Shown here piece by piece: positions 2,385-21,238 of a stretch of 21,270 bases of DNA. Location: IMG/VR virus record IMGVR_UViG_3300024346_005248, positions 1-21,270 of that record, one strand, 5' to 3'. Position 1 is the first letter of the stretch. Each line of letters begins with the position of its first letter. Origin of the DNA: a virus. The notes under the pieces are model-generated. The model saw only the letters and a program-made list of their open reading frames with translations. It was not told where the DNA came from and made no database searches. Made by a program: the position numbers and the translations under genes.

Positions 2385-2810
2385 ATGTGGACATTTAATA
2401 ATCTAATCATTGAAGAGTTGCCTGAAGACTGCGTTGGCTTTGTTTATTTAATTACGAACAAAGCCAACAGTCGTATGTATATCGGGAAGAAATTAGCTAA
2501 GTTTTCTAAGACGACCTACAAAATGGTCACTCAGAAGAATGGAGTTAAGAAGCGAAAGAAGATCAAGTCGAAGATCGACTCTGATTGGCTGGACTATTAC
2601 GGTTCAAGTATCGAGCTAAATAAAGATGTAGAGTCTCTTGGGAAGGAAAACTTCACCCGAGAGATTTTGTTTTTCTGCAAATCTAAAGCAGAGTGTTCGT
2701 ATATTGAAGCAAGAGAACAATTCACAAGGAGAGTATTGGAATCAGACGACTACTATAATGGACAAATTTCCGTTAGAGTTCATGGTTCTCATATTAAGAA
2801 TAAATTATGA
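2385..2810 (+). CDS. GIY-YIG family putative endonuclease
   Basis: A 141-residue protein with an N-terminal GIY-YIG nuclease signature: GFVYLI (18-23) for the GIY strand and MYIGKK (31-36) for the YIG strand, followed by a basic stretch (KKRKKIKSK) and a C-terminal IEAREQF...DDYYNGQ segment. Short proteins of this layout are common in T4-like phages and are annotated as Seg-like or putative homing endonucleases. No separate DNA-binding domain is visible, so mobility cannot be assumed. No Shine-Dalgarno precedes the ATG and a late-promoter-like box sits 14 bases upstream. It overlaps the start of the next gene by 4 bases. Position next to the nrd genes is typical for phage homing endonucleases, but no intron or split gene is visible here. 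Confidence 0.75.
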   Translation: MWTFNNLIIEELPEDCVGFVYLITNKANSRMYIGKKLAKFSKTTYKMVTQKNGVKKRKKIKSKIDSDWLDYYGSSIELNKDVESLGKENFTREILFFCKSKAECSYIEAREQFTRRVLESDDYYNGQISVRVHGSHIKNKL

Positions 2811-3928
2811 CGTACTTACTATTAGTAGTAGCATTATCACTTTCAGCTGTAGCAGCATGGTATGCCATCGTTGGTTTGATGGCGATCTTTGCTGCAGCTG
2901 CAATTCCTATTGCTGTGATGGGTGGTCTTTTAGAAACATCTAAACTTGTTATTGCTTCTTGGTTATATCGTAACTGGAAAGAAATCCCAAAGCTGATGCG
3001 AGTGTACTTCACATTCTCATTGGTCGTGTTGATGATGTTAACTTCGATGGGTATTTTCGGTTTCTTAAGTAAGGCTCATTTGGATCAAGCTATACCTAGT
3101 GGCGATGTTGCTGCTAAGTTATCTTTAATAGATGAGAAAATAAAAACAGAAAAGGACAACATCAATGCAAGCCGTAAAGAACTTACTCAACTCGATGCTC
3201 AAGTGGATCAAACCATCAGTAGAACAACCGAAGCCAGTGGAGCAGAGCGAGCCATTGCCATCCGTAGAGGACAGCAAAAAGACAGAGCCAGAATCCTTAC
3301 CGAAATCGGTACAGCGCAAGCCAAAGTCGCCAAACTCAACGAAGAGCGTGCCCCAATCGCCAGCGAAGTCCGTAAAGTCGAAGCCGAAGTTGGACCAATC
3401 AAATACATCGCAGCCATCATCTACGAAGACAGCGCCAGCGAAGAAATCCTCGAAAAAGCAGTAAGAATTGTAACAATGATGATTGTTATTGTTTTCGACC
3501 CATTAGCTGTATTAATGTTGATTGCAGCTAACTGGTCATTGAAACATAACAACAAACCAAACTGGACAGAGTACTTCACTAAAAAGAGAGATGAAGAAAT
3601 AGACTTTCCAGAGGCTAAAGAAATAAAAGTTCAAGACGATATTAATATCGAAGATACATCAAAATATGTAGCAGATGTTGGAGAACCACCAACAGAAGAA
3701 GAACTTAACATTGAAGAAGAACCTTCTCCAACGGAGTGGTCTCCACAACTATATCAACGTATTAGACCAAAAGTAGACACAGAGTCAGACAAAGCTAAGT
3801 CTTTCTTAAACAAGGTTAACAATACTATCGGTGTTAAAACCATCGAACAAGAAGTTGAAGAAATTCAAGTCAATGACAAAGGTAAAGTTATTGAATATGA
3901 CTCTGCGGGTAGAAGGGTCACTCCATAA
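2807..3928 (+). CDS. Coiled-coil integral membrane protein (DUF4407-like layout)
   Basis: A 373-residue protein with hydrophobic segments at about 3-22, 22-42, 66-88 and 220-243. A charged coiled-coil-like region (about 102-200) lies between the third and fourth, and the C-terminal 130 residues are acidic and hydrophilic. This layout resembles DUF4407-type membrane proteins, but I cannot confirm membership. It opens a run of membrane and secreted proteins that reaches 8003. Codon use is odd: from about 3158 to 3464 the third position switches from the usual A/T to mostly C (GCC, ATC, GTC), then returns to A/T. That stretch coincides with an open second reading frame (3165-3464), which suggests overprinting. 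Function is unknown; envelope remodelling or a virion-membrane role are possibilities. Confidence 0.7.
   Translation: MTYLLLVVALSLSAVAAWYAIVGLMAIFAAAAIPIAVMGGLLETSKLVIASWLYRNWKEIPKLMRVYFTFSLVVLMMLTSMGIFGFLSKAHLDQAIPSGDVAAKLSLIDEKIKTEKDNINASRKELTQLDAQVDQTISRTTEASGAERAIAIRRGQQKDRARILTEIGTAQAKVAKLNEERAPIASEVRKVEAEVGPIKYIAAIIYEDSASEEILEKAVRIVTMMIVIVFDPLAVLMLIAANWSLKHNNKPNWTEYFTKKRDEEIDFPEAKEIKVQDDINIEDTSKYVADVGEPPTEEELNIEEEPSPTEWSPQLYQRIRPKVDTESDKAKSFLNKVNNTIGVKTIEQEVEEIQVNDKGKVIEYDSAGRRVTP
3165..3464 (+). CDS. Candidate overprinted gene: Pro/Ser/Lys-rich protein inside the coiled-coil gene
   Basis: A 99-residue ORF in the +1 frame of the membrane-protein gene, spanning that protein's residues 120-219, which is the coiled coil just before its last membrane segment. 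An AAAAGGA Shine-Dalgarno-like sequence sits 4 bases before its ATG. The product starts with an amphipathic stretch (NLLNSMLKWI) and then becomes a disordered, basic Pro/Ser/Lys/Thr-rich chain with recurring KS, PK and SP units. The host gene's codons take C at the third position only across this span, which places C at the second position of this frame and so encodes Pro, Ser, Thr and Ala. No signal peptide or lipobox cysteine is present, so it is not a standard Rz1 lipoprotein despite the similar nested layout. The alternative is a chance by-product of unusual codon use. Confidence 0.5.
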   Translation: MQAVKNLLNSMLKWIKPSVEQPKPVEQSEPLPSVEDSKKTEPESLPKSVQRKPKSPNSTKSVPQSPAKSVKSKPKLDQSNTSQPSSTKTAPAKKSSKKQ

Positions 3929-4479: not shown

Positions 4480-6117
4480 ATGAAGTTAGTTTCTGTTCTT
4501 GCTGTTGCAATTCTGACAGCAGGTCTTGGCACCTGCTCAGTCAAAGCGCAAACTCCAATGCAATCGCCAAACTTAATTGGTGCTCCATATAGCACTCCAA
4601 CAGGAACAACTGCATATACTGGGACTGGTGGTGGACTTTCTGGTGGTTCAACTCCTGGATATAATTCAACTACTAATACCATATATTTCGGTTATACTCA
4701 ATCGGCTGCAGCCTACACTTATGCGTTTAATGAAGCGTTGAGAAACAGTGGTATGACAATCCTTGGATATAACTACTCATGGAGTTATTTAAATCAAGGA
4801 CAAGCATCTGGTAATCTTACAGCTGCTGTAAATTTTGCTGGTACTAATGGAACTTCATTACATACAAAAAACTGGATACTTGGAACAACAACTGACTGGA
4901 CTAGTGTTAGTGGAACAGAAACATTTCCTAATAACGGAATGGCAGTAGCAAGTATTGCTAATTTCTCTTTAAGTTTTTCTGGTAAAGATTCTCGTTTTTG
5001 GGCAGGTTATTATGGACCACAAGTTAAAGATCCATCTTTATCTTTAAACTATACATTCGACCAATGTTCATCAAATCCACTATCAAGTCCAACATGTCCA
5101 GGTTATGCTGCAGCATATTTGACTCAACAATGTACTGCCAATCCACTGTATAATACTAGCTGTCCAGGTTATGCTGCAGCGTATCAAATCCAACAGTGCA
5201 CAATTAATCCGATATCTGATCCTAGTTGTCCAGGATACGCAACTGCTTATTTAAATTATCAGTGTTCTGTTAATCCTCTTTACAGCACTACATGTCCTGG
5301 ATACGCACAAGCGTACTTAGATGATCAATGTATCAAAGATTCTCTATTCAGTAAAGACTGTAAAGGATATGCTACTGCTTATGCTATAAAGTATTTGGTT
5401 CCAGGGATTGATTCAACAGTAGTAAATCAATCCCTATCAAATACTGCTGCAACAAAAGCAAACGATCCAGCCACTACAAAGGTAGCAGTCAACACTGTTA
5501 CAACAACTATTAATACCGATGGTTCAGTTTCTACAGGTGCTTCAGTCACTGGTGATACCAACGTAGATAAAGCAATTACTTCCAAAGCATCAACAACTAA
5601 TGTTACACCAACAGCAGTTCAGTTAGCACCACCTCCTCCACCACCTCAACAACAAATGGCGCAGGGTGAGCCAAGAGGTGGTAATAAACAAGAGGATAAA
5701 AAAGATGATGCTCCGAAAGGCACTGGAGGCAGTTCTCCGCCATCGAATATTAATACTGCTCAAGCGCCATCTGATAAACCAGCAGCGCCAACTGTTAGAC
5801 AAGCAATCCAAGAACGAAGAGAAGCAGCTGCCAAAGCCGAAGCAGTAGAAAAAGGTAAGAACCTTGCTGGTGAAATGGGCAAGGCATCAGACTTAGAAGC
5901 GCAAAAAGCAGTTCAGAATGTAGTTATCCAAGCAATGGGTTTTACTCCTGGATTTGATGTATATAGCAGACAGATGATAGTTCAACAACAGTTCTATCCA
6001 TCGGTATCAGTGTATAACAATCAAAAAAATATTGATAATCGTTACACAGCAAGAATGTTTGGTGGTACTGATAGACTCCATAATGAGATGGTGGAGAAAC
6101 AATATGAAGGTAGATAA
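4480..6117 (+). CDS. Large secreted protein with five 22-residue cysteine repeats
   Basis: A 545-residue exported protein. The N-terminus (MKLVSVLAVAILTAGLGTCSVKA) is a Sec signal peptide, with cleavage likely after VKA; the Cys at 19 is in a poor lipobox context (LGTC). A Gly/Thr/Ser-rich region to about 190 follows. Residues 194-303 hold five tandem 22-residue repeats with the pattern QC-x3-NPL-x4-CPGYA-x-AY, two cysteines each. Then come a Thr/Ala-rich stretch, a run of prolines (LAPPPPPPQQQ), a charged helical segment, and a well-formed C-terminal domain (MGFTPGFDVYSRQMI ... YNNQKNIDNRY) typical of a conserved module. Its stop overlaps the next start (TAATG). It could be a virion-associated adhesin or a periplasmic factor; the family role is unknown to me. 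Confidence 0.7.
   Translation: MKLVSVLAVAILTAGLGTCSVKAQTPMQSPNLIGAPYSTPTGTTAYTGTGGGLSGGSTPGYNSTTNTIYFGYTQSAAAYTYAFNEALRNSGMTILGYNYSWSYLNQGQASGNLTAAVNFAGTNGTSLHTKNWILGTTTDWTSVSGTETFPNNGMAVASIANFSLSFSGKDSRFWAGYYGPQVKDPSLSLNYTFDQCSSNPLSSPTCPGYAAAYLTQQCTANPLYNTSCPGYAAAYQIQQCTINPISDPSCPGYATAYLNYQCSVNPLYSTTCPGYAQAYLDDQCIKDSLFSKDCKGYATAYAIKYLVPGIDSTVVNQSLSNTAATKANDPATTKVAVNTVTTTINTDGSVSTGASVTGDTNVDKAITSKASTTNVTPTAVQLAPPPPPPQQQMAQGEPRGGNKQEDKKDDAPKGTGGSSPPSNINTAQAPSDKPAAPTVRQAIQERREAAAKAEAVEKGKNLAGEMGKASDLEAQKAVQNVVIQAMGFTPGFDVYSRQMIVQQQFYPSVSVYNNQKNIDNRYTARMFGGTDRLHNEMVEKQYEGR
5059..5388 (+). repeat. Five tandem 66-base protein-coding repeats
   Basis: Each unit encodes 22 residues of the form QC-x3-NPL-x4-CPGYA-x-AY. 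Units 1-4 are close at protein level; unit 5 has diverged (NPL to DSL, CPGYA to CKGYA). Synonymous differences between units are many, so the array is old and kept by selection on the protein, not a recent DNA duplication. Confidence 0.85.
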
Positions 6118-13986: not shown

Positions 13987-14675
13987 ATCCGTACATAACA
14001 AAATTGGATCTCTCTTTGCCATTGGCTGAGGCTAGGATCAAGAGTATGTTCTCTGATATGCCTAAGTTTGCCAAACAAAGATTCCCTCATTGGAAGAAAG
14101 CTAAAATTGCTGCGCATAATGATCCAGATCTTTCAGCTGAGGATAGTCTATCTTTACTGGCACAGGAAGATACTGATTGGTTAAAACAGATTAATGCTTC
14201 TATTGTTGCTGCTTATGGTAAGGATACCTTAGTCTTCAATCAATATGATATTAGAGAACCGTATAAAGAGCAGTTCCTTAATATGTTACCTGTTGAAGTA
14301 AGAAACATATGTGGTACAGTTACAATTCAGTGGGCTAAGGGTGGAGACTATATTCAACCGCATAGAGATCATCATAGAAAATGTGGTTTGTTTTATGCCT
14401 TGTCTAAACCTGACTGCGAAACTCGATGGTATCAGAAGAAATTTGATTTTAAAGAATCTGATACTTTAAGGTTTGCTTTTCCAGATGATTTGGAAGTTGT
14501 GCATACAGAAATTATACAGAATGGTTCTTGGTATCTTTTTAACAATCAACCATTCCACTCGGTACACAGATTACCAAACGTGATTGCAAATAGAAAAACT
14601 TTTGTGATTGATTTTTATGATATGGACTATGATTCAGTATTGAAGGTTTGTAGTGGAACACTCATTGAGGCTTAA
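13983..14675 (+). CDS. 2OG-Fe(II) dioxygenase-like protein
   Basis: A 230-residue protein whose C-terminal half is a jelly-roll oxygenase. QPHRDHHRKCG supplies the HxD pair (His127, Asp129), FHSVHRL the distal His192, and ANRKTFVIDF Arg204 for the 2-oxoglutarate carboxylate. The pattern fits aspartyl/asparaginyl or prolyl hydroxylase-type 2OG-Fe(II) enzymes, which T4-like aquatic phages often carry with unknown substrates. The N-terminal 90 residues are helical and specific. It overlaps its upstream neighbour by 4 bases and the aldolase-family gene by 23. It needs Fe(II), oxygen and 2-oxoglutarate, linking it to host TCA and iron status. Confidence 0.75.
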   Translation: MNPYITKLDLSLPLAEARIKSMFSDMPKFAKQRFPHWKKAKIAAHNDPDLSAEDSLSLLAQEDTDWLKQINASIVAAYGKDTLVFNQYDIREPYKEQFLNMLPVEVRNICGTVTIQWAKGGDYIQPHRDHHRKCGLFYALSKPDCETRWYQKKFDFKESDTLRFAFPDDLEVVHTEIIQNGSWYLFNNQPFHSVHRLPNVIANRKTFVIDFYDMDYDSVLKVCSGTLIEA

Positions 14676-15369
14676 ACTCGCAGCAGTATTTCGAATAATT
14701 CATCACTATGGTTGGGATGATTTAATATTCACACATGCATCTGCACGAATCCCTGGAACAGATCATATACTAATTAACTCATATGGGCTTAGATTCGATG
14801 AGATTACTGCAAGCAATTTGTTGAGGATAGATCTTTCTGGAAATATAATTTCTGGTGATGGTACAGTTAATCCTGCTGGGTTAGTCATACATAGCACTAT
14901 CCATGGATATCGAGAAGACGCTGGCTGTGTAATTCATCTACATACTAAAGAAGGTATGGCAGTTTCAGCTGATAAGAATGGATTGTGGCCATGCACTCAA
15001 CGTGCATATAATTGTCTAAGAAGCCTTGCTTATCATGACTATTATGGAATAGTTGTTGATGAAAAAGAGAAACTTGCATTAAAAATAAATCTTGGAAATA
15101 AACGAAATTTGATTATGAGAAACCATGGTATACTTACCGTTGGTTCTTGTGTAGAAGAATCTATGGCATCGATGCGTGCACTTCAAGTCGCATGTGAAAC
15201 CCAAGTTCTAATCAATAGAGATAATGCTATTATGATTGGAAGTGATGTTATGGAAAGCGCACAACGAAAAGTCATGACTGGTTTGGTTGATAAAGAAAAA
15301 CCTTACATGTCGGCTTGGAATGCGATGTATAGATTAGTTGAACAAAAATACCCAGAGTTTAAATTATGA
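14653..15369 (+). CDS. Class II aldolase/adducin family protein
   Basis: A 238-residue protein of the AraD/FucA/adducin head-domain fold. GWDDLIFTHASARIPG, YGLRFDEITASNL, NPAGLVIH, CVIHLHTKEGMAVSA (His95, His97) and RNHGILTVG (His158) follow the family order, and the three histidines are the expected zinc ligands. The position of FucA Glu73 is occupied by the NPAG motif, as in the adducin-like branch, so classic aldolase chemistry is uncertain. The start is the GTG at 14653, with AAGG six bases upstream; it overlaps the oxygenase gene. The next gene overlaps it by 4 bases. A sugar-phosphate or methylthioribulose-type substrate is possible; nothing here decides. It is an uncommon metabolic gene for a phage. 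Confidence 0.75.
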   Translation: MEHSLRLKLAAVFRIIHHYGWDDLIFTHASARIPGTDHILINSYGLRFDEITASNLLRIDLSGNIISGDGTVNPAGLVIHSTIHGYREDAGCVIHLHTKEGMAVSADKNGLWPCTQRAYNCLRSLAYHDYYGIVVDEKEKLALKINLGNKRNLIMRNHGILTVGSCVEESMASMRALQVACETQVLINRDNAIMIGSDVMESAQRKVMTGLVDKEKPYMSAWNAMYRLVEQKYPEFKL

Positions 15370-15854
15370 AACAAAAATGGATTGACGCATTTATGGATAC
15401 AGCAACTAGGTTTGCTCAGCTTTCAAGTTCACGCAGATTGCATGTTGGTGCTGTAGTCGTTAAAGACGAACGTATCATCTCTATCGGTTACAATGGAACA
15501 CCTGCTGGTTGGGATAATAACTGTGAGCATACTGAATATGTTGGTAGTGACGAGCAAATCCCATCTCCAGATGAAATGAAACGATTGGGATTTACTGGTA
15601 CTGATAACGGGTGGTATCGTTTAAAAACTAAAGATGAGGTAATTCATGCTGAAGCGAATGCGATCTCTAAGTTGGCAAGATCGAACGACTCTGGTCTTGG
15701 TGGTGCTATGTTTATTACTCACGCTCCTTGTATGGATTGTGCCAAGCTGATTTTTGGAGCAGGTATAAATACCGTGTATTACCGTAATTCCTACCGTGAT
15801 ACAAATGGTATTGACTTTTTAACTAAGTGTAATATAGAGGTGAATAAAGTATGA
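15366..15854 (+). CDS. cd: dCMP deaminase
   Basis: A 162-residue zinc deaminase converting dCMP to dUMP for dTMP synthesis. Zinc and proton-shuttle residues are in VIHAEANAI (His94, Glu96) and HAPCMDCAKLI (Cys122, Cys125). RRLHVGAVVVKD and ISIGYNGTPAGWDNNCEH match phage dCMP deaminases, as does the insertion (about 60-90) before the HAE motif. It overlaps the upstream and downstream genes by 4 bases each. Together with NrdAB it feeds pyrimidine deoxynucleotide synthesis. Allosteric dCTP/dTTP control is known for T4 Cd; not assessable here. Confidence 0.93.
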   Translation: MKQKWIDAFMDTATRFAQLSSSRRLHVGAVVVKDERIISIGYNGTPAGWDNNCEHTEYVGSDEQIPSPDEMKRLGFTGTDNGWYRLKTKDEVIHAEANAISKLARSNDSGLGGAMFITHAPCMDCAKLIFGAGINTVYYRNSYRDTNGIDFLTKCNIEVNKV

Positions 15855-16726
15855 AGAAATTAGCAGCTGTATTGGCTATGTTGTGTATGAATGCGTTTGC
15901 TGGCGAAACTATCAAGATCTTATCACCTTATAGTCCAACTCATTCTGGCACACCAGCAATGTACAAGATTATCGATGAAGCTAACAAAGCGCAGAAGATC
16001 TATACCTTTGTGTTGGAGTTTCGTCCAGGTGGTAATCAGATGATTGCGCTTAAAGCCATGGACGCAAACAGTCTTGGTATCATCGCTCCTGCGTTTGTGG
16101 AGAACGTTGCTTCTGGTAAGTTGATTGAGGAAGACTACATTCCTATTCATGCCCTTGGTGATGCTTGCTGGGCAGTCATCACTAATGGACCAATCAGTGC
16201 CAACAAAGAACTAACAGTTGGTGGTGTTGGCTTTGGTAATGCTGCTCACATAACTGCGTTGGCTCTTGGTGAGAAGTATAAGTTCGGTGTCAGATACATT
16301 ATCTTTAAATCAAACAACGATGCGCTTGTGAACATGGCAGGTAACAACGGAATCTTTATGGTTATCGATCGTTATGAATCATATGAAGCCATGAAGACTA
16401 AGAATCCAAACTTACAAGCCTTTGCTGCTTCTTGTCCAACTCGACTACCAAATGCACCAAAGGTTAAGACGCTGAAGGAAATTGGTATCGATGCACCGTA
16501 TGTATTCAACATTACAGTGGCTCCAAAGTCAATGGATGAAACTCGTCGTAAAGCTATTGCTATCATCCTAAATGATGCACAAGCTAGAGTTGGTGCTGAT
16601 GAAATCTTCAAAGCGTCTGGAATGAAAGTTCCAAACGAATCTGCTGATCAGTTCTACACCAAGTCAGTCGCTACAGTTAGAAAACTCCAAGCCAAATACA
16701 GAGATGAAATTGAGAAATCAAAATGA
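15851..16726 (+). CDS. Periplasmic solute-binding protein, TctC/Bug-like
   Basis: A 291-residue exported protein. MKKLAAVLAMLCMNAFAG is a Sec signal peptide, cleaved probably after AFA (residue 17). The mature part resembles the TctC/Bug family of extracytoplasmic receptors: EFRPGGNQMIALKAM, GGVGFGNAAHITALALG, and LKEIGIDAPYVFNITVAPKSMDE in the usual order. It is shorter than typical family members (about 320) and lacks the standard N-terminal 'PGG' loop position, so its ligand may differ. No tctA/tctB membrane partners are nearby. A phage-made periplasmic receptor would have to use host transporters or act in sensing or binding. It overlaps the second oxygenase gene by 4 bases. Confidence 0.65.
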   Translation: MKKLAAVLAMLCMNAFAGETIKILSPYSPTHSGTPAMYKIIDEANKAQKIYTFVLEFRPGGNQMIALKAMDANSLGIIAPAFVENVASGKLIEEDYIPIHALGDACWAVITNGPISANKELTVGGVGFGNAAHITALALGEKYKFGVRYIIFKSNNDALVNMAGNNGIFMVIDRYESYEAMKTKNPNLQAFAASCPTRLPNAPKVKTLKEIGIDAPYVFNITVAPKSMDETRRKAIAIILNDAQARVGADEIFKASGMKVPNESADQFYTKSVATVRKLQAKYRDEIEKSK

Positions 16727-17278: not shown

Positions 17279-17671
17279 ATGGCATACTCAACTAAAGTTA
17301 TCGATCACTACGAGAACCCTCGTAATGTAGGATCCTTCGGTAAAGACGAAGAGGGAGTAGGCACAGGTATGGTTGGAGCACCAGCTTGCGGTGACGTGAT
17401 GAAGCTACAGATTAAGGTAGATGATAATGGTATTATTAGAGATGCTCGTTTCAAGACATATGGATGCGGTTCAGCAATCGCAAGTTCCAGTCTCGTCACT
17501 GAGATGGTTAAGGGTATGCACATTGACGATGCTAATAAACTTAAGAACTCTCAAATCGCTGAAGAACTAGCACTCCCACCAGTTAAAATTCACTGCTCAA
17601 TTCTAGCAGAAGACGCAATTAAGGCAGCTGTAAATGATTACCGTAACAGACACAGCAAAGCAAAAGATTAA
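17279..17671 (+). CDS. iscU: Fe-S cluster assembly scaffold IscU
   Basis: A 130-residue IscU, the scaffold on which [2Fe-2S]/[4Fe-4S] clusters are built. The sequence is strikingly like bacterial IscU (MAYSTKVIDHYENPRNVGSF; GMVGAPACGDVMKLQIKV). All functional residues keep E. coli numbering: Cys37, Asp39, Cys63, His105, Cys106, plus the LPPVK motif (99-103) that HscA recognises. It should therefore work with host IscS, HscA/HscB and ferredoxin, none of which is encoded here. A late-type motif precedes it and its end overlaps iscA by 38 bases in another frame. The high similarity suggests acquisition from a proteobacterial host and strong functional constraint. Confidence 0.96.
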   Translation: MAYSTKVIDHYENPRNVGSFGKDEEGVGTGMVGAPACGDVMKLQIKVDDNGIIRDARFKTYGCGSAIASSSLVTEMVKGMHIDDANKLKNSQIAEELALPPVKIHCSILAEDAIKAAVNDYRNRHSKAKD

Positions 17672-17960
17672 AAAACTTCTCGAGAAGCGTGGTAAGGGAG
17701 TTGGTATCCGCTTGGGTGTAAGGACTACTGGATGTAGTGGTTTAGCTTACACTTTGGAATTTGTAGATACTATCGAATACGAAGTGGGTGTGACCAATTA
17801 CGCCCAGCCAGAGTTCGCTGTTCTCGTTGACGCAAAGGCAGATGCCTACATGAGTGGTATGATAGTTGATTGGGTTCGTAATGGACTCAACGAAGGATTT
17901 GATTTTCAAAACCCAAACGAACGTGACCGATGTGGTTGCGGAGAAAGTTTCCGAGTATGA
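17634..17960 (+). CDS. iscA: A-type Fe-S carrier IscA
   Basis: A 108-residue A-type carrier that accepts Fe-S clusters (or iron) from IscU and passes them to apo-proteins. [20 protein letters not shown] (Cys34) and CGCGESFRV (Cys100, Cys102) match IscA closely, including the [20 protein letters not shown] tail. The ATG lies inside the end of iscU and the overlap is 38 bases, longer than the usual 1-4 here, so translation is coupled. The stop overlaps the ErpA-like gene (ATGA). Of the two A-type proteins in this cluster, this one is IscA by its 'RLGVRT' and 'GESF' phrases. Confidence 0.93.
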
Positions 17961-18259
17961 TTACACTAACAGAAAACGCAACAAATAAAATCCAAGATCT
18001 TCTTCTAGAAAACCAAGAAGACTATTTAAGAATTTCCGTCCAAGGCGGTGGTTGTTCTGGATTTACCTATGCATTCGTGTTCGATGATAAGCAAGAAGAT
18101 GATTTCGCTTTTGGGAAAGTCCTCGTCGACTCCATGAGTATTCAATACATGCAGGGAGCAACTCTTGACTATTTGGAAGACTTAATGGGTTCTCAGTTTA
18201 CGGTGCTAAATCCAAATGCTCAGTCCACCTGCGGTTGTGGCAGTTCATTCTCTGTATAA
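17957..18259 (+). CDS. erpA: A-type Fe-S carrier, ErpA-like
   Basis: A 100-residue A-type carrier. [19 protein letters not shown] (Cys33), [20 protein letters not shown] and [16 protein letters not shown] (Cys92, Cys94) match ErpA, which matures isoprenoid, respiratory and other essential Fe-S enzymes. The start at 17957 is chosen from the ATGA overlap with iscA; an upstream in-frame alternative at 17930 would add nine residues from iscA's frame-shifted end. The gene ends one base before the stop codon of the opposite-strand gene, leaving no room for a terminator. Two different A-type carriers plus IscU in one phage operon is unusual. Confidence 0.92.
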
Positions 18260-18796
18260 TTAAGCCACTCGTCTTTTAATAGAACTTATCGGAACGTGGT
18301 GGTAAGATACGTTAGTCTTGACCTCATGCTTCTCCCAGCAATGTGCGTCTGGTGAACAATTTTTATCGTCAAATCTCCCACAGATACCCTGCTCGCAAGA
18401 ATTGATGGTTTTTATAAAATTACCATTAACATCAAGTATATTGGCTTCAGTTCTAATATCATTCTCTTTAGCCCAATCTTTCTTATAACGTGTAATTCTT
18501 GATGTAGCTGCGTCAATGCTTGAGTATTCGTAGAAGTACGTGCGCCAGTAATCTTCTATGCCCTTTATTGATTTGAAGAATTTCCGTTTATAGTTGATTG
18601 CGTAACATCCATTAGATAACTGGTATCTTTCAACCGAAAGTAGAAGGTCGCCTTTGTAAATATGATGTGAGGTCTTTTCCTGCACTCTTTTATAAAAGTG
18701 CTTTAGTTCCTCTTCTAAATCATCAGGTAATATCTTCAAATCTTCGAAAAATAGATCTTCATTCTTATTGATATGGATTGATTCTAAGATATACAT
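18260..18796 (-). CDS. Tandem paralogue 2, cysteine-containing protein of unknown function
   Basis: A 178-residue protein, related to its upstream neighbour at both ends: MYILESIHINKNEDLFFED at the start, and EANILDVNGNFIKTINSC, then EQGICGRF, DKNCSPDAHC and YHHVPISSIKRRV at the end. Four cysteines (C-x4-C-x6-C-x5-C by eye) and paired histidines suggest a metal site or disulfides. The middle is poorly conserved between the copies. No signal peptide. The start overlaps the stop of paralogue 1 (TAATG), so the pair forms a two-gene minus-strand operon. It converges on erpA with zero spacing. I do not recognise the family. Confidence 0.65.
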   Translation of the reverse strand: MYILESIHINKNEDLFFEDLKILPDDLEEELKHFYKRVQEKTSHHIYKGDLLLSVERYQLSNGCYAINYKRKFFKSIKGIEDYWRTYFYEYSSIDAATSRITRYKKDWAKENDIRTEANILDVNGNFIKTINSCEQGICGRFDDKNCSPDAHCWEKHEVKTNVSYHHVPISSIKRRVA

Positions 18797-19359
18797 TATA
18801 CTTTCCTCTTGATAGAAGAAACTGGGACATGATGCAGGGAAACTTTTGATTTATTAAATACTTGGGATTCTGGATAGATTGTGGCGCATTTTTCAGATGG
18901 ATTACATTCTCCGAATCTAATACAAACTTGTTGTGTGCAAGAATTTATACATTTAATGAAGTTGCCGAGATTGTCTAGGATATTTGCTTCCATAAAAATA
19001 TTATTGGAAGTCATCCATTCTATTCGTTTTAGATTAAATTCTTCAGTATGTTTTTTATGTTTACCAGTTTCATTCCACTCGTGTTGCTGGTAGTTTAGAA
19101 ATAATTCTTTAAAGTACAATTCTGCATCAGATTGTTTTTTAAAGAAAGATTTCGTTGTAGTTTTTCTAAACGAACCATCTTGTAGTTGTTCTCGTTTAGC
19201 TGTAGATCTAACATCTTTTTTGTAGAATTTTTCTGAATGTAGTTCATTAAAGTTCTTATAAAATAATGCAAACTGACTTTCCATTAATGGGTCAGTGATT
19301 GTATCTTCAAAGAATAGATCCGCTTCTTTGTTAACGTGAATAATTTCCAAGATGTACAT
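18796..19359 (-). CDS. Tandem paralogue 1, cysteine-containing protein of unknown function
   Basis: A 187-residue protein, first gene of a minus-strand pair. It shares with paralogue 2 the N-terminal MYILEIIHVNKEADLFFED and the C-terminal MEANILDNLGNFIKCINSC, TQQVCIRF, ECNPSEKC and LHHVPVSSIKRKV. The central part differs and is about ten residues longer. Cysteine spacing in the C-terminal knuckle is similar but not identical. AGGAGA precedes the ATG by 9 bases, and an ATAAATA late-type motif lies just upstream, so expression is probably late. Unknown family; a small metal-binding or host-interaction module kept after gene duplication is a reasonable guess. Confidence 0.65.
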   Translation of the reverse strand: MYILEIIHVNKEADLFFEDTITDPLMESQFALFYKNFNELHSEKFYKKDVRSTAKREQLQDGSFRKTTTKSFFKKQSDAELYFKELFLNYQQHEWNETGKHKKHTEEFNLKRIEWMTSNNIFMEANILDNLGNFIKCINSCTQQVCIRFGECNPSEKCATIYPESQVFNKSKVSLHHVPVSSIKRKV

Positions 19360-20002: not shown

Positions 20003-20076
20003 TCCCGAGTAGTGTAGTGGTAACACACCAGACTTTGACTCTGTTATTGTAAGTTCGATTCTTACCTCGGGTGCCA
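20003..20076 (+). tRNA. trnQ: tRNA-Gln (anticodon UUG)
   Basis: Acceptor CCCGAG/CTCGGG with a weak first pair, D arm TAGTGTAGTGGTAACACA, anticodon loop CTTTGAC (UUG at 20035-20037), T stem GTAAG/CTTAC and an encoded CCA end. A weak first pair is typical of glutamine tRNAs. Confidence 0.9.
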
Positions 20077-20139
20077 AACAGAAATATACTTCCCCTCTAT
20101 CTGAGACGATGGAGACTTTGTTAGTGTGTTTCTGTTTGG
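20074..20139 (+). other. Structured spacer RNA after tRNA-Gln
   Basis: CCAAACAGAAA (20074-20084, including the tRNA CCA) pairs perfectly with TTTCTGTTTGG (20129-20139). Inside, CTCTATC and GATGGAG form a 7-pair hairpin. It could guide 3' processing or be a separate small RNA. Confidence 0.45.
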
Positions 20140-20163
20140 TAAGTTTAACAAAAGGAGAGTAGC

Positions 20164-20187
20164 ATGAAACGTTCAGGTAAACGTTAG
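20164..20187 (+). CDS. Minigene of seven codons with strong ribosome site
   Basis: MKRSGKR then TAG, preceded by AAAAGGAGAG and a 5-base spacer. The ribosome site is as good as any in the window, but the peptide is only 7 residues. Phage minigenes can act by titrating tRNAs or ribosomes; a chance match remains possible. Confidence 0.3.
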   Translation: MKRSGKR

Positions 20188-20200
20188 TGTCACTCAAGAT

Positions 20201-20332
20201 CCCGTATTGGTCTTGGGTTGGCACGTAAAATCGAAATAATTACGACAACCCACTCGTGGCGTTAATGGTAGCGTACATGACTCTTAATCATCGAGGTCTG
20301 AGTTCGAATCTCAGCGAGTGGACCAATACGGG
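20201..20332. repeat. 12-base inverted repeat flanking tRNA-Lys(CUU)
   Basis: CCCGTATTGGTC (20201-20212) and GACCAATACGGG (20321-20332) are exact reverse complements around the tRNA; the downstream arm includes its CCA and the first bases of the next tRNA. Confidence 0.7.
20250..20325 (+). tRNA. trnK: tRNA-Lys (anticodon CUU)
   Basis: Acceptor CCACTCG/CGAGTGG, anticodon stem ATGA/TCAT with loop CTCTTAA (CUU at 20283-20285), T stem CTGAG/CTCAG, encoded CCA. The outermost anticodon-stem pair is C-C and the D stem relies on G-U pairs, so it is slightly degenerate. Confidence 0.85.
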
Positions 20333-20404
20333 GGTATAACTTAACGGCTAAAGTACGTGGCTTTTAACCATGTAATCAGAGTTCGATTCTCTGTGCCCCT
20401 ACCA
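20330..20404 (+). tRNA. trnK: tRNA-Lys (anticodon UUU)
   Basis: Acceptor GGGGGTA/TGCCCCT (G-U closing pairs), anticodon loop CTTTTAA (UUU at 20363-20365), T stem CAGAG/CTCTG, encoded CCA. It begins 4 bases after the previous tRNA ends. Confidence 0.9.
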
Positions 20405-20416
20405 AGAATTCTTTGT

Positions 20417-20491
20417 GGAGTCATTAGTTTAGTGGCAAAACCACGGGTTGTGATTCCGTTATCACGAGTTCAATTCTCGTATGACTCCCCA
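20417..20491 (+). tRNA. trnH: tRNA-His (anticodon GUG)
   Basis: Eight-pair acceptor GGAGTCAT/ATGACTCC, including the G-1:C73 pair diagnostic of histidine tRNAs, loop TTGTGAT (GUG at 20450-20452), T stem ACGAG/CTCGT, encoded CCA. Flanks ATTCTTTG and CAAAGAAT can pair. Confidence 0.93.
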
Positions 20492-20501
20492 AAGAATTTT
20501 T

Positions 20502-20577
20502 GCCGAAGTAGCTCATCTGGTAGAGCACCTGTTTGAAGCACAGGGTGTGGTTGGTTCGAGTCCAATCTTCGGTACCA
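20502..20577 (+). tRNA. trnF: tRNA-Phe (anticodon GAA)
   Basis: Acceptor GCCGAAG/CTTCGGT, D stem GCTC/GAGC, anticodon stem CCTGT/ACAGG with loop TTGAAGC (GAA at 20535-20537), encoded CCA. Confidence 0.93.
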
Positions 20578-20582
20578 AATAT

Positions 20583-20657
20583 TCCCGATTAGCTCAGCGG
20601 TAGAGCACTCGCTTGATAAGCGATAGGTCAGTGATTCGAATTCACTATTGGGAACCA
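20583..20657 (+). tRNA. trnI: tRNA-Ile (anticodon GAU)
   Basis: Acceptor TCCCGAT/ATTGGGA, D stem GCTC/GAGC, loop TTGATAA (GAU at 20615-20617), T stem AGTGA/TCACT, encoded CCA. One mismatch closes the anticodon stem. Confidence 0.9.
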
Positions 20658-20849
20658 AGTTTTGTAAGTGTAGATGTTGAGAAAGCAGAACTTCGAAAAC
20701 TCTGTGAGAGGACGGTACAAGCCCGACCAAATGATAGCTACTCAAGTATCAACTATTACTACGTACCTCTATCCTGTCTGCAGCTTCAAAGAAAATACAG
20801 GTAGAATGGTTGCGATGAGTGAGGCGCAACTACTTACAAATTCAATAAT
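20658..20849. other. Spacer without a recognised gene
   Basis: 192 bases between tRNA-Ile and tRNA-Trp. I see no cloverleaf; small hairpins are present (GTTGCG/CGCAAC near 20808-20828 by eye). An open frame from 20674 runs on through tRNA-Trp and is not convincing as a gene. It could hold a decayed tRNA or homing-gene remnant. Confidence 0.4.
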
Positions 20850-20923
20850 ATCTCGATGGTGTAATGGCAGCATAGCAGTCTCCAAAACTGTTGGTCGGGG
20901 TTCGAGTCCCTGTCGGGATGCCA
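20850..20923 (+). tRNA. trnW: tRNA-Trp (anticodon CCA)
   Basis: Acceptor ATCTCGA/TCGGGAT, anticodon loop CTCCAAA (CCA at 20882-20884), T arm CGGGG-TTCGAGT-CCCTG, encoded CCA end. Confidence 0.92.
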
Positions 20924-20929
20924 AGTTTT

Positions 20930-21001
20930 ATGGTAAGGAAAGTAAAAGGAACATGGGCAAGTTATTGGCTAGACAATAACCAGATACCGTACCTGCCATA
21001 A
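20930..21001 (+). CDS. Possible 23-residue peptide between tRNAs
   Basis: MVRKVKGTWASYWL... ends IPYLP before TAA, a plausible basic/aromatic peptide, but no ribosome site precedes it. The same DNA forms a 7-pair hairpin (GTTATTG/CAATAAC) and a longer ATGGTAAGG/CCTGCCAT closing stem, so it may be RNA and not coding. Confidence 0.2.
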   Translation: MVRKVKGTWASYWLDNNQIPYLP

Positions 21002-21010
21002 ATTTATTTC

Positions 21011-21085
21011 GGTGATGTAGCACAGCGGTAGTGCATCTCCTTCATACGGAGCAGGTCGTTGGCTCGAATCCAACCATCACCACCA
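21011..21085 (+). tRNA. trnM: tRNA-Met, elongator type (anticodon CAU)
   Basis: Acceptor GGTGATG/CATCACC with a normal G1-C72 pair, hence not an initiator; D stem GCAC/GTGC; loop TTCATAC (CAU at 21043-21045); encoded CCA. A lysidine-modified Ile role cannot be excluded from sequence. Confidence 0.9.
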
Positions 21086-21091
21086 AGTTTT

Positions 21092-21154
21092 AGGATAGTT
21101 ACAGCAAATTACAATACATTTGACTTTTAATCAAAACCGTAAAAAGCTATCCTG
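21092..21154 (+). tRNA. Degenerate tRNA-Lys-like gene without T arm
   Basis: A perfect 7-pair acceptor AGGATAG (21092-21098) / CTATCCT (21147-21153) and a perfect anticodon arm TTTGA-CTTTTAA-TCAAA (UUU at 21126-21128). No D or T arm is evident and no CCA follows. It may be a decayed tRNA or a tRNA-like RNA. Confidence 0.45.
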
Positions 21155-21163
21155 TTGTTTTAT

Positions 21164-21238
21164 GCGCCTTTAGTAAAATGAATATTACACAACGCTACGA
21201 ACGTTGAATTGGGAGTTTGATTCTCTCAGGGCGTACCA
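21164..21238 (+). tRNA. trnR: tRNA-Arg (anticodon ACG)
   Basis: Acceptor GCGCCTT/AGGGCGT, D stem GTAA/TTAC, anticodon stem CAACG/CGTTG with loop CTACGAA (ACG at 21197-21199), T stem GGGAG/CTCTC, encoded CCA. The D loop lacks the usual GG, and A34 would need conversion to inosine by host TadA. Confidence 0.82.

Follow-up and report, generated by a model that had tools for sequence, protein, structure and literature searches.

A nested gene family very probably overprinted in the +1 frame of a coiled-coil membrane-protein gene of phages

The classic case of a small gene embedded in another is the Rz/Rz1 pair of phage lambda, in which the entire Rz1 gene is read in the +1 frame of Rz, which encodes a coiled-coil protein of the inner membrane (PMC6139136); among annotated viral overlaps, 30% consist of one gene fully contained in another (PMC7017920). 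We analysed a stretch of viral DNA of 21,270 nucleotides (IMG/VR record IMGVR_UViG_3300024346_005248, positions 1 to 21,270; hereafter the window), in which a 99-codon frame, ORF2, is nested in the +1 frame of a gene for a coiled-coil membrane protein, here called the host gene. ORF2 resembles lambda Rz1 in being a small embedded +1 gene with a Pro-rich product (PMC6139136), but Rz1 is a lipoprotein with a signal sequence and lipobox, whereas the ORF2 product has neither, is basic and has a predicted amphipathic helix. As in overprinted viral genes generally, a de novo ORF in an older gene encodes a disordered product (PMC7017920, PMC8227390); unlike them, ORF2 has natural early-ending, broken and swapped states which expose the cost that overprinting places on host codons. 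Overprinted +1 embedding is a known kind of arrangement, and the ORF2 family itself, for which tblastn against INPHARED phages and searches of PHROGs, Pfam and PDB returned no match, is a new family; no description of it was found in a literature search confined to open-licence papers.

The host gene (2807..3928, plus strand) encodes a 373-residue four-helix coiled-coil membrane protein. Its AlphaFold model (pLDDT 74) combines a long coiled coil with four helices or parts of helices of transmembrane (TM) length, in a predicted layout of TM segments at residues ~2-27, 29-55 and 62-~90, a coiled coil at ~91-206, a further TM segment at ~212-248 and an acidic tail; the membrane topology used below is that suggested by this predicted structure. 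DUF4407 (PF14362) was matched weakly by 15 of 44 host homologues (best 7.9e-05); the window's own protein had no DUF4407 match and the Pfam gathering score was not reached; the likeness concerns the host gene only, through its relatives. Searches of PDB with the host protein by sequence and by fold returned only chance-level matches, mostly to coiled coils and ABC transporters, and the significant matches in a viral fold search were all to uncharacterised or unnamed proteins.

The window begins with the end of nrdA, followed by nrdB, a SegE-like GIY-YIG gene (2385..2810, plus strand; PF19835, 3.5e-32) and the host gene, the last two overlapping by ATGA. The SegE-like gene lies directly upstream of the host gene in all 80 first-scan loci. 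A glutamine-amidotransferase-like gene between nrdA and nrdB (575-1222) is absent from nearly all relatives. The protein encoded downstream at 4480-6117 is probably secreted and has QCxxNPLxxxxCPGYAxAY-type repeats; about a third of relatives have it close to the host gene. A phage-borne gene for a TctC-like periplasmic receptor (15851-16726; PF03401, 2.1e-07) has a class II aldolase gene (14653-15369) upstream, and an IscU-like gene followed by two overlapping IscA/ErpA-like genes (17279-18259) forms what we take, from the sequences, to be a set for Fe-S assembly carried by the phage. The minus strand carries two neighbouring genes, apparently paralogues, at 18260-19359, and nine tRNA genes (Gln, Lys x2, His, Phe, Ile, Trp, Met, Arg) lie at 20003-21238.

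ORF2 extends on the plus strand from an ATG at 3165 to a stop at 3462-3464 (3165..3464; 99 aa) and is preceded by a Shine-Dalgarno (SD)-like AAAAGGA (3150..3156, plus strand), whose AAGGA (3152-3156) leaves an 8-nt spacer to the ATG; the coordinates, frame, length and ribosome site given in the first-pass annotation of this DNA are confirmed. The product in the window is Pro/Ser/Lys-rich with a net charge of +12. Over 3224..3461 (plus strand) the host codons switch to endings in C, a pattern which would be imposed by ORF2 because the host third base is the ORF2 second base, where C specifies Pro, Ser, Thr or Ala. This is the strongest such stretch in the window, containing the highest ten C3 values (0.40-0.55) among 920 forty-codon windows of the window's genes. 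The switch had been described as exactly co-extensive with ORF2, which does not hold at its start: the first ~16 ORF2 codons, those of the helix (host residues 121-135), are not C-rich (0.13), and the switch begins near 3224. This late onset fits the same relationship, since second-position C encodes Pro, Ser, Thr and Ala. In most relatives ORF2 stops at host residue ~195-198; only the window's group and some others continue to residue 219, and the C-terminal extension (3396..3461, plus strand) occurs only in these long-ended relatives. The evidence from the single sequence is modest, a codon-permutation test placing ORF2 at 4/1000 and ORF2 being the lowest of 48 gene/frame permutation tests in the window (0.01).

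Searching IMG/VR with the host protein yielded 593 relatives, of which 80 loci were retained; a scan with the nested protein yielded 257 relatives, and further scans with divergent host homologues reached other clades. The ORF2 family is carried by at least 257 viral contigs, and in 224 of 224 loci matching the nested protein (partly redundant) the match lies solely in the host gene's +1 frame. Named phages contributed only distant homologues of the host gene, namely Pelagibacter phage Mosig (44%), Xanthomonas XacN1 and Salicola SCTP-2, together with Stenotrophomonas RAS14/CM1, Flavobacterium immuto and Microcystis Mel-JY01, and GTDB genomes, scanned with the host protein, contained no relative. 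The window's group includes contigs of up to 160-175 kb, a size which, with the presence of nrdA/nrdB, T4-type RNase H and SegE-like genes, suggests that these are large T4-like phages, and the group is widespread.

Of 92 distinct relatives, 89 keep the ORF2 frame open over host residues 120-195, against an expectation of ~4 stops per sequence and a P(open) of ~0.006 each when codons are drawn from the rest of the gene; across the 44 first-set representatives there are 0 stops in the frame versus ~175 expected. The start codon is ATG in 89 of the 92 and GTG in 1, and AAGGA with an 8-nt spacer precedes it in 88 of the 90 relatives that have a start codon. The Lys codon inside AAGGA is AAG in every one of the first 61, while elsewhere AAA is 2.6x commoner (AAA:AAG = 654:254). 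Host-synonymous change is reduced at residues 121-200 (O/E 0.43-0.72, p 0-0.02) relative to the remainder of the gene (1.0-1.35), and host amino-acid divergence is not lowered over the same stretch. Changes silent in the host but altering ORF2 are slow (dSN 0.257 versus 0.57-0.65 in control stretches), and those silent in both frames stay close to normal, with a dSS of 0.70 (controls 0.83-0.96) on few SS sites, 1.2 per pair, which also gives dSN/dSS (0.37) a wide interval (CI 0.17-1.45). An OLGenie-type dNN/dNS ratio did not separate the ORF2 stretch (0.62) from controls (0.49-0.87). Read from sequence, the comparison shows purifying selection maintaining the frame, start, SD and sequence of ORF2. 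The first-pass annotation had tentatively attributed the codon switch to selection on the second frame and proposed testing whether homologues keep that frame open with fewer host-synonymous changes; stop avoidance, synonymous constraint and conservation of start and SD strongly support the attribution.

The codon switch also co-varies with the extent of ORF2. At host residues 197-218 mean C3 is 0.11 (0.00-0.32) in 71 short-ended relatives, whose ORF2 ends at or before residue 202, and 0.52 (0.45-0.59) in 15 long-ended relatives including the window, whose ORF2 continues to 219-224. The two states require 3 changes on a tree built without these columns, and therefore amount to about three independent comparisons rather than 86. 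In three relatives with a broken frame, two of which lack the SD codon, C3 at residues 136-196 falls to 0.07-0.25 versus a mean of 0.40. The switch is likewise missing from a second type of coiled coil (L005:5001-6083, L168, L172-L175, L186, L238), in which all 8 members have an open +1 frame together with ATG and AAGGA, codon usage is ordinary (C3 0.15-0.19) and host-silent changes are not slowed. At the N-terminus these proteins are close to the window's group: L005 and L001 are 82% identical there and 55% in the coiled coil, which points to apparent exchange of the coiled-coil segment between phages. In a related marine control clade of Mosig type, 43 representatives carry 339 stops across the stretch, and synonymous variation does not dip at residues 121-170. 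Because the host gene occurs without ORF2 both in this clade and in jumbo phages, the host frame is the older of the two, and ORF2, never seen outside the host gene, is by this comparison born inside it.

We weighed the possibility that the +1 frame is open by chance and that the coiled coil has C-ending codons for another reason, such as translation speed, local composition or a recombined segment. The within-sequence evidence is modest, the relatives share ancestry and are not independent, and the coiled-coil segment does recombine, but the C-switch follows the end of ORF2, disappears in broken relatives and is missing from L005-type coiled coils, and the conserved start and SD codon, with the lack of stops, make this reading very improbable. 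An RNA structure or cis-regulatory element is in our estimate extremely unlikely as the source of the synonymous constraint: excess synonymous constraint by itself cannot discriminate such an element from a protein, but shuffled sequences fold at least as well as the RNA (z 0.48), Rfam has no match in the stretch, the constraint is even over ~230 nt, +1 stops are avoided and changes silent in both frames remain fast, albeit at few sites.

Ribosomes in the host frame might instead shift by +1 into ORF2 and make a TM-anchored fusion, since in about half of the relatives no stop interrupts the +1 frame between host residue ~105-109 and the ATG, and AAGGA could serve as a shift stimulator. Such a fusion is excluded in 38 of 90 relatives because an in-frame stop directly precedes the start codon, and the synonymous constraint begins at residue ~121, not 105; we give this route very little credence. 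A further alternative is an embedded spanin pair like Rz/Rz1. Besides the shared architecture of a Pro-rich product embedded at +1 in a membrane-anchored coiled-coil protein, the host homologue lies near glucosaminidase/GH108 genes in Mosig and near holin/chitinase in Flavobacterium phage immuto, and 4 of 44 host proteins weakly match an Rz-like PHROG. Against this, 37 of 39 ORF2 proteins have no Cys and there is no lipobox, as the first-pass annotation had already remarked in drawing the parallel, so ORF2 is not an Rz1 o-spanin; moreover, the host has four predicted TM helices in place of the one N-terminal TMD and periplasmic coiled coil of an i-spanin. The likeness stands for architecture only, and a spanin pair appears very improbable. 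We consider it very likely that ORF2 is a real protein-coding gene, whose translation we infer, overprinted on an older phage gene for a membrane protein, in its +1 frame. Ribosomes would enter at the internal AAGGA/ATG and not via a frameshift, and selection on the second position of ORF2 codons, which is the host third position, would force C-ending host codons.

An AlphaFold model of the ORF2 protein has one confident helix at residues 2-15 (pLDDT ~82) and is otherwise disordered. The amphipathic N-terminal helix assigned from this model together with the hydrophobic moment (3168..3215, plus strand; residues 2-17, QAVKNLLNSMLKWIKP) has a mean moment of 0.64, exceeding shuffles (p<0.05) in 39 of 39 proteins; under a synonymous null the mean is 0.44-0.53 (p 0.04-0.10). 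Much of the amphipathicity comes from host heptads read in +1, and the helix was accordingly rejected as proof of selection by itself. The tail is predicted to be basic, disordered and Pro/Ser/Lys-rich, and the mean net charge of ORF2 proteins is +10.6. The mean net charge of the host tail is -12 to -13 in ORF2-bearing groups and +5.5 in the Mosig clade. Our best guess at function, a tentative one, is that the ORF2 product is a peripheral inner-membrane partner of the host protein. It would be a cytosolic peripheral membrane protein with its amphipathic helix on the inner membrane, its basic disordered tail docking on the host-gene product translated from the same mRNA, at that protein's acidic cytoplasmic tail, and this docking would tune the host envelope protein, perhaps in lysis or superinfection. 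The tail pairing is kept as a hypothesis because host homologues in jumbo phages lacking ORF2 also have acidic tails (average charge -9), and a link to lysis is only hinted at by the neighbouring genes in two distant phages.

Flavobacterium phage immuto and eight metagenomic relatives have a +1 ORF of 64-75 aa in about the same place, unrelated in sequence to ORF2 (L085:2369-3514 and L321-L330; MKKMLxxMxxNLKExLAIxLLSVTQNLPQSK...), which is open and weakly constrained. Codon permutation gives p 0-0.018 in 9/9, with a synonymous O/E of ~0.7 and an increase in C3 from ~0.1 to 0.19-0.29. From these nine sequences, the homologous gene of Flavobacterium phages likely carries another +1 ORF; the data fit an independent birth as well as common ancestry with ORF2. 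Conceivably, though we rate it as rather unlikely, the coiled-coil membrane gene has been a repeated cradle for nested genes, in the window's T4-like group and in the Flavobacterium-phage group, with a coiled coil read in +1 being already amphipathic and then selected as a membrane-active partner of the host protein.

Nested frames are dropped by annotation pipelines, which is why PHROGs, Pfam and the phage records searched yielded no match to a family present in at least 257 viral contigs. Intact, early-ending, broken and swapped ORF2 alleles make the price of overprinting on host codons directly readable, and as a set they allow gene birth by overprinting to be traced. The link to the coiled coil suggests a possible general route to amphipathic de novo peptides.
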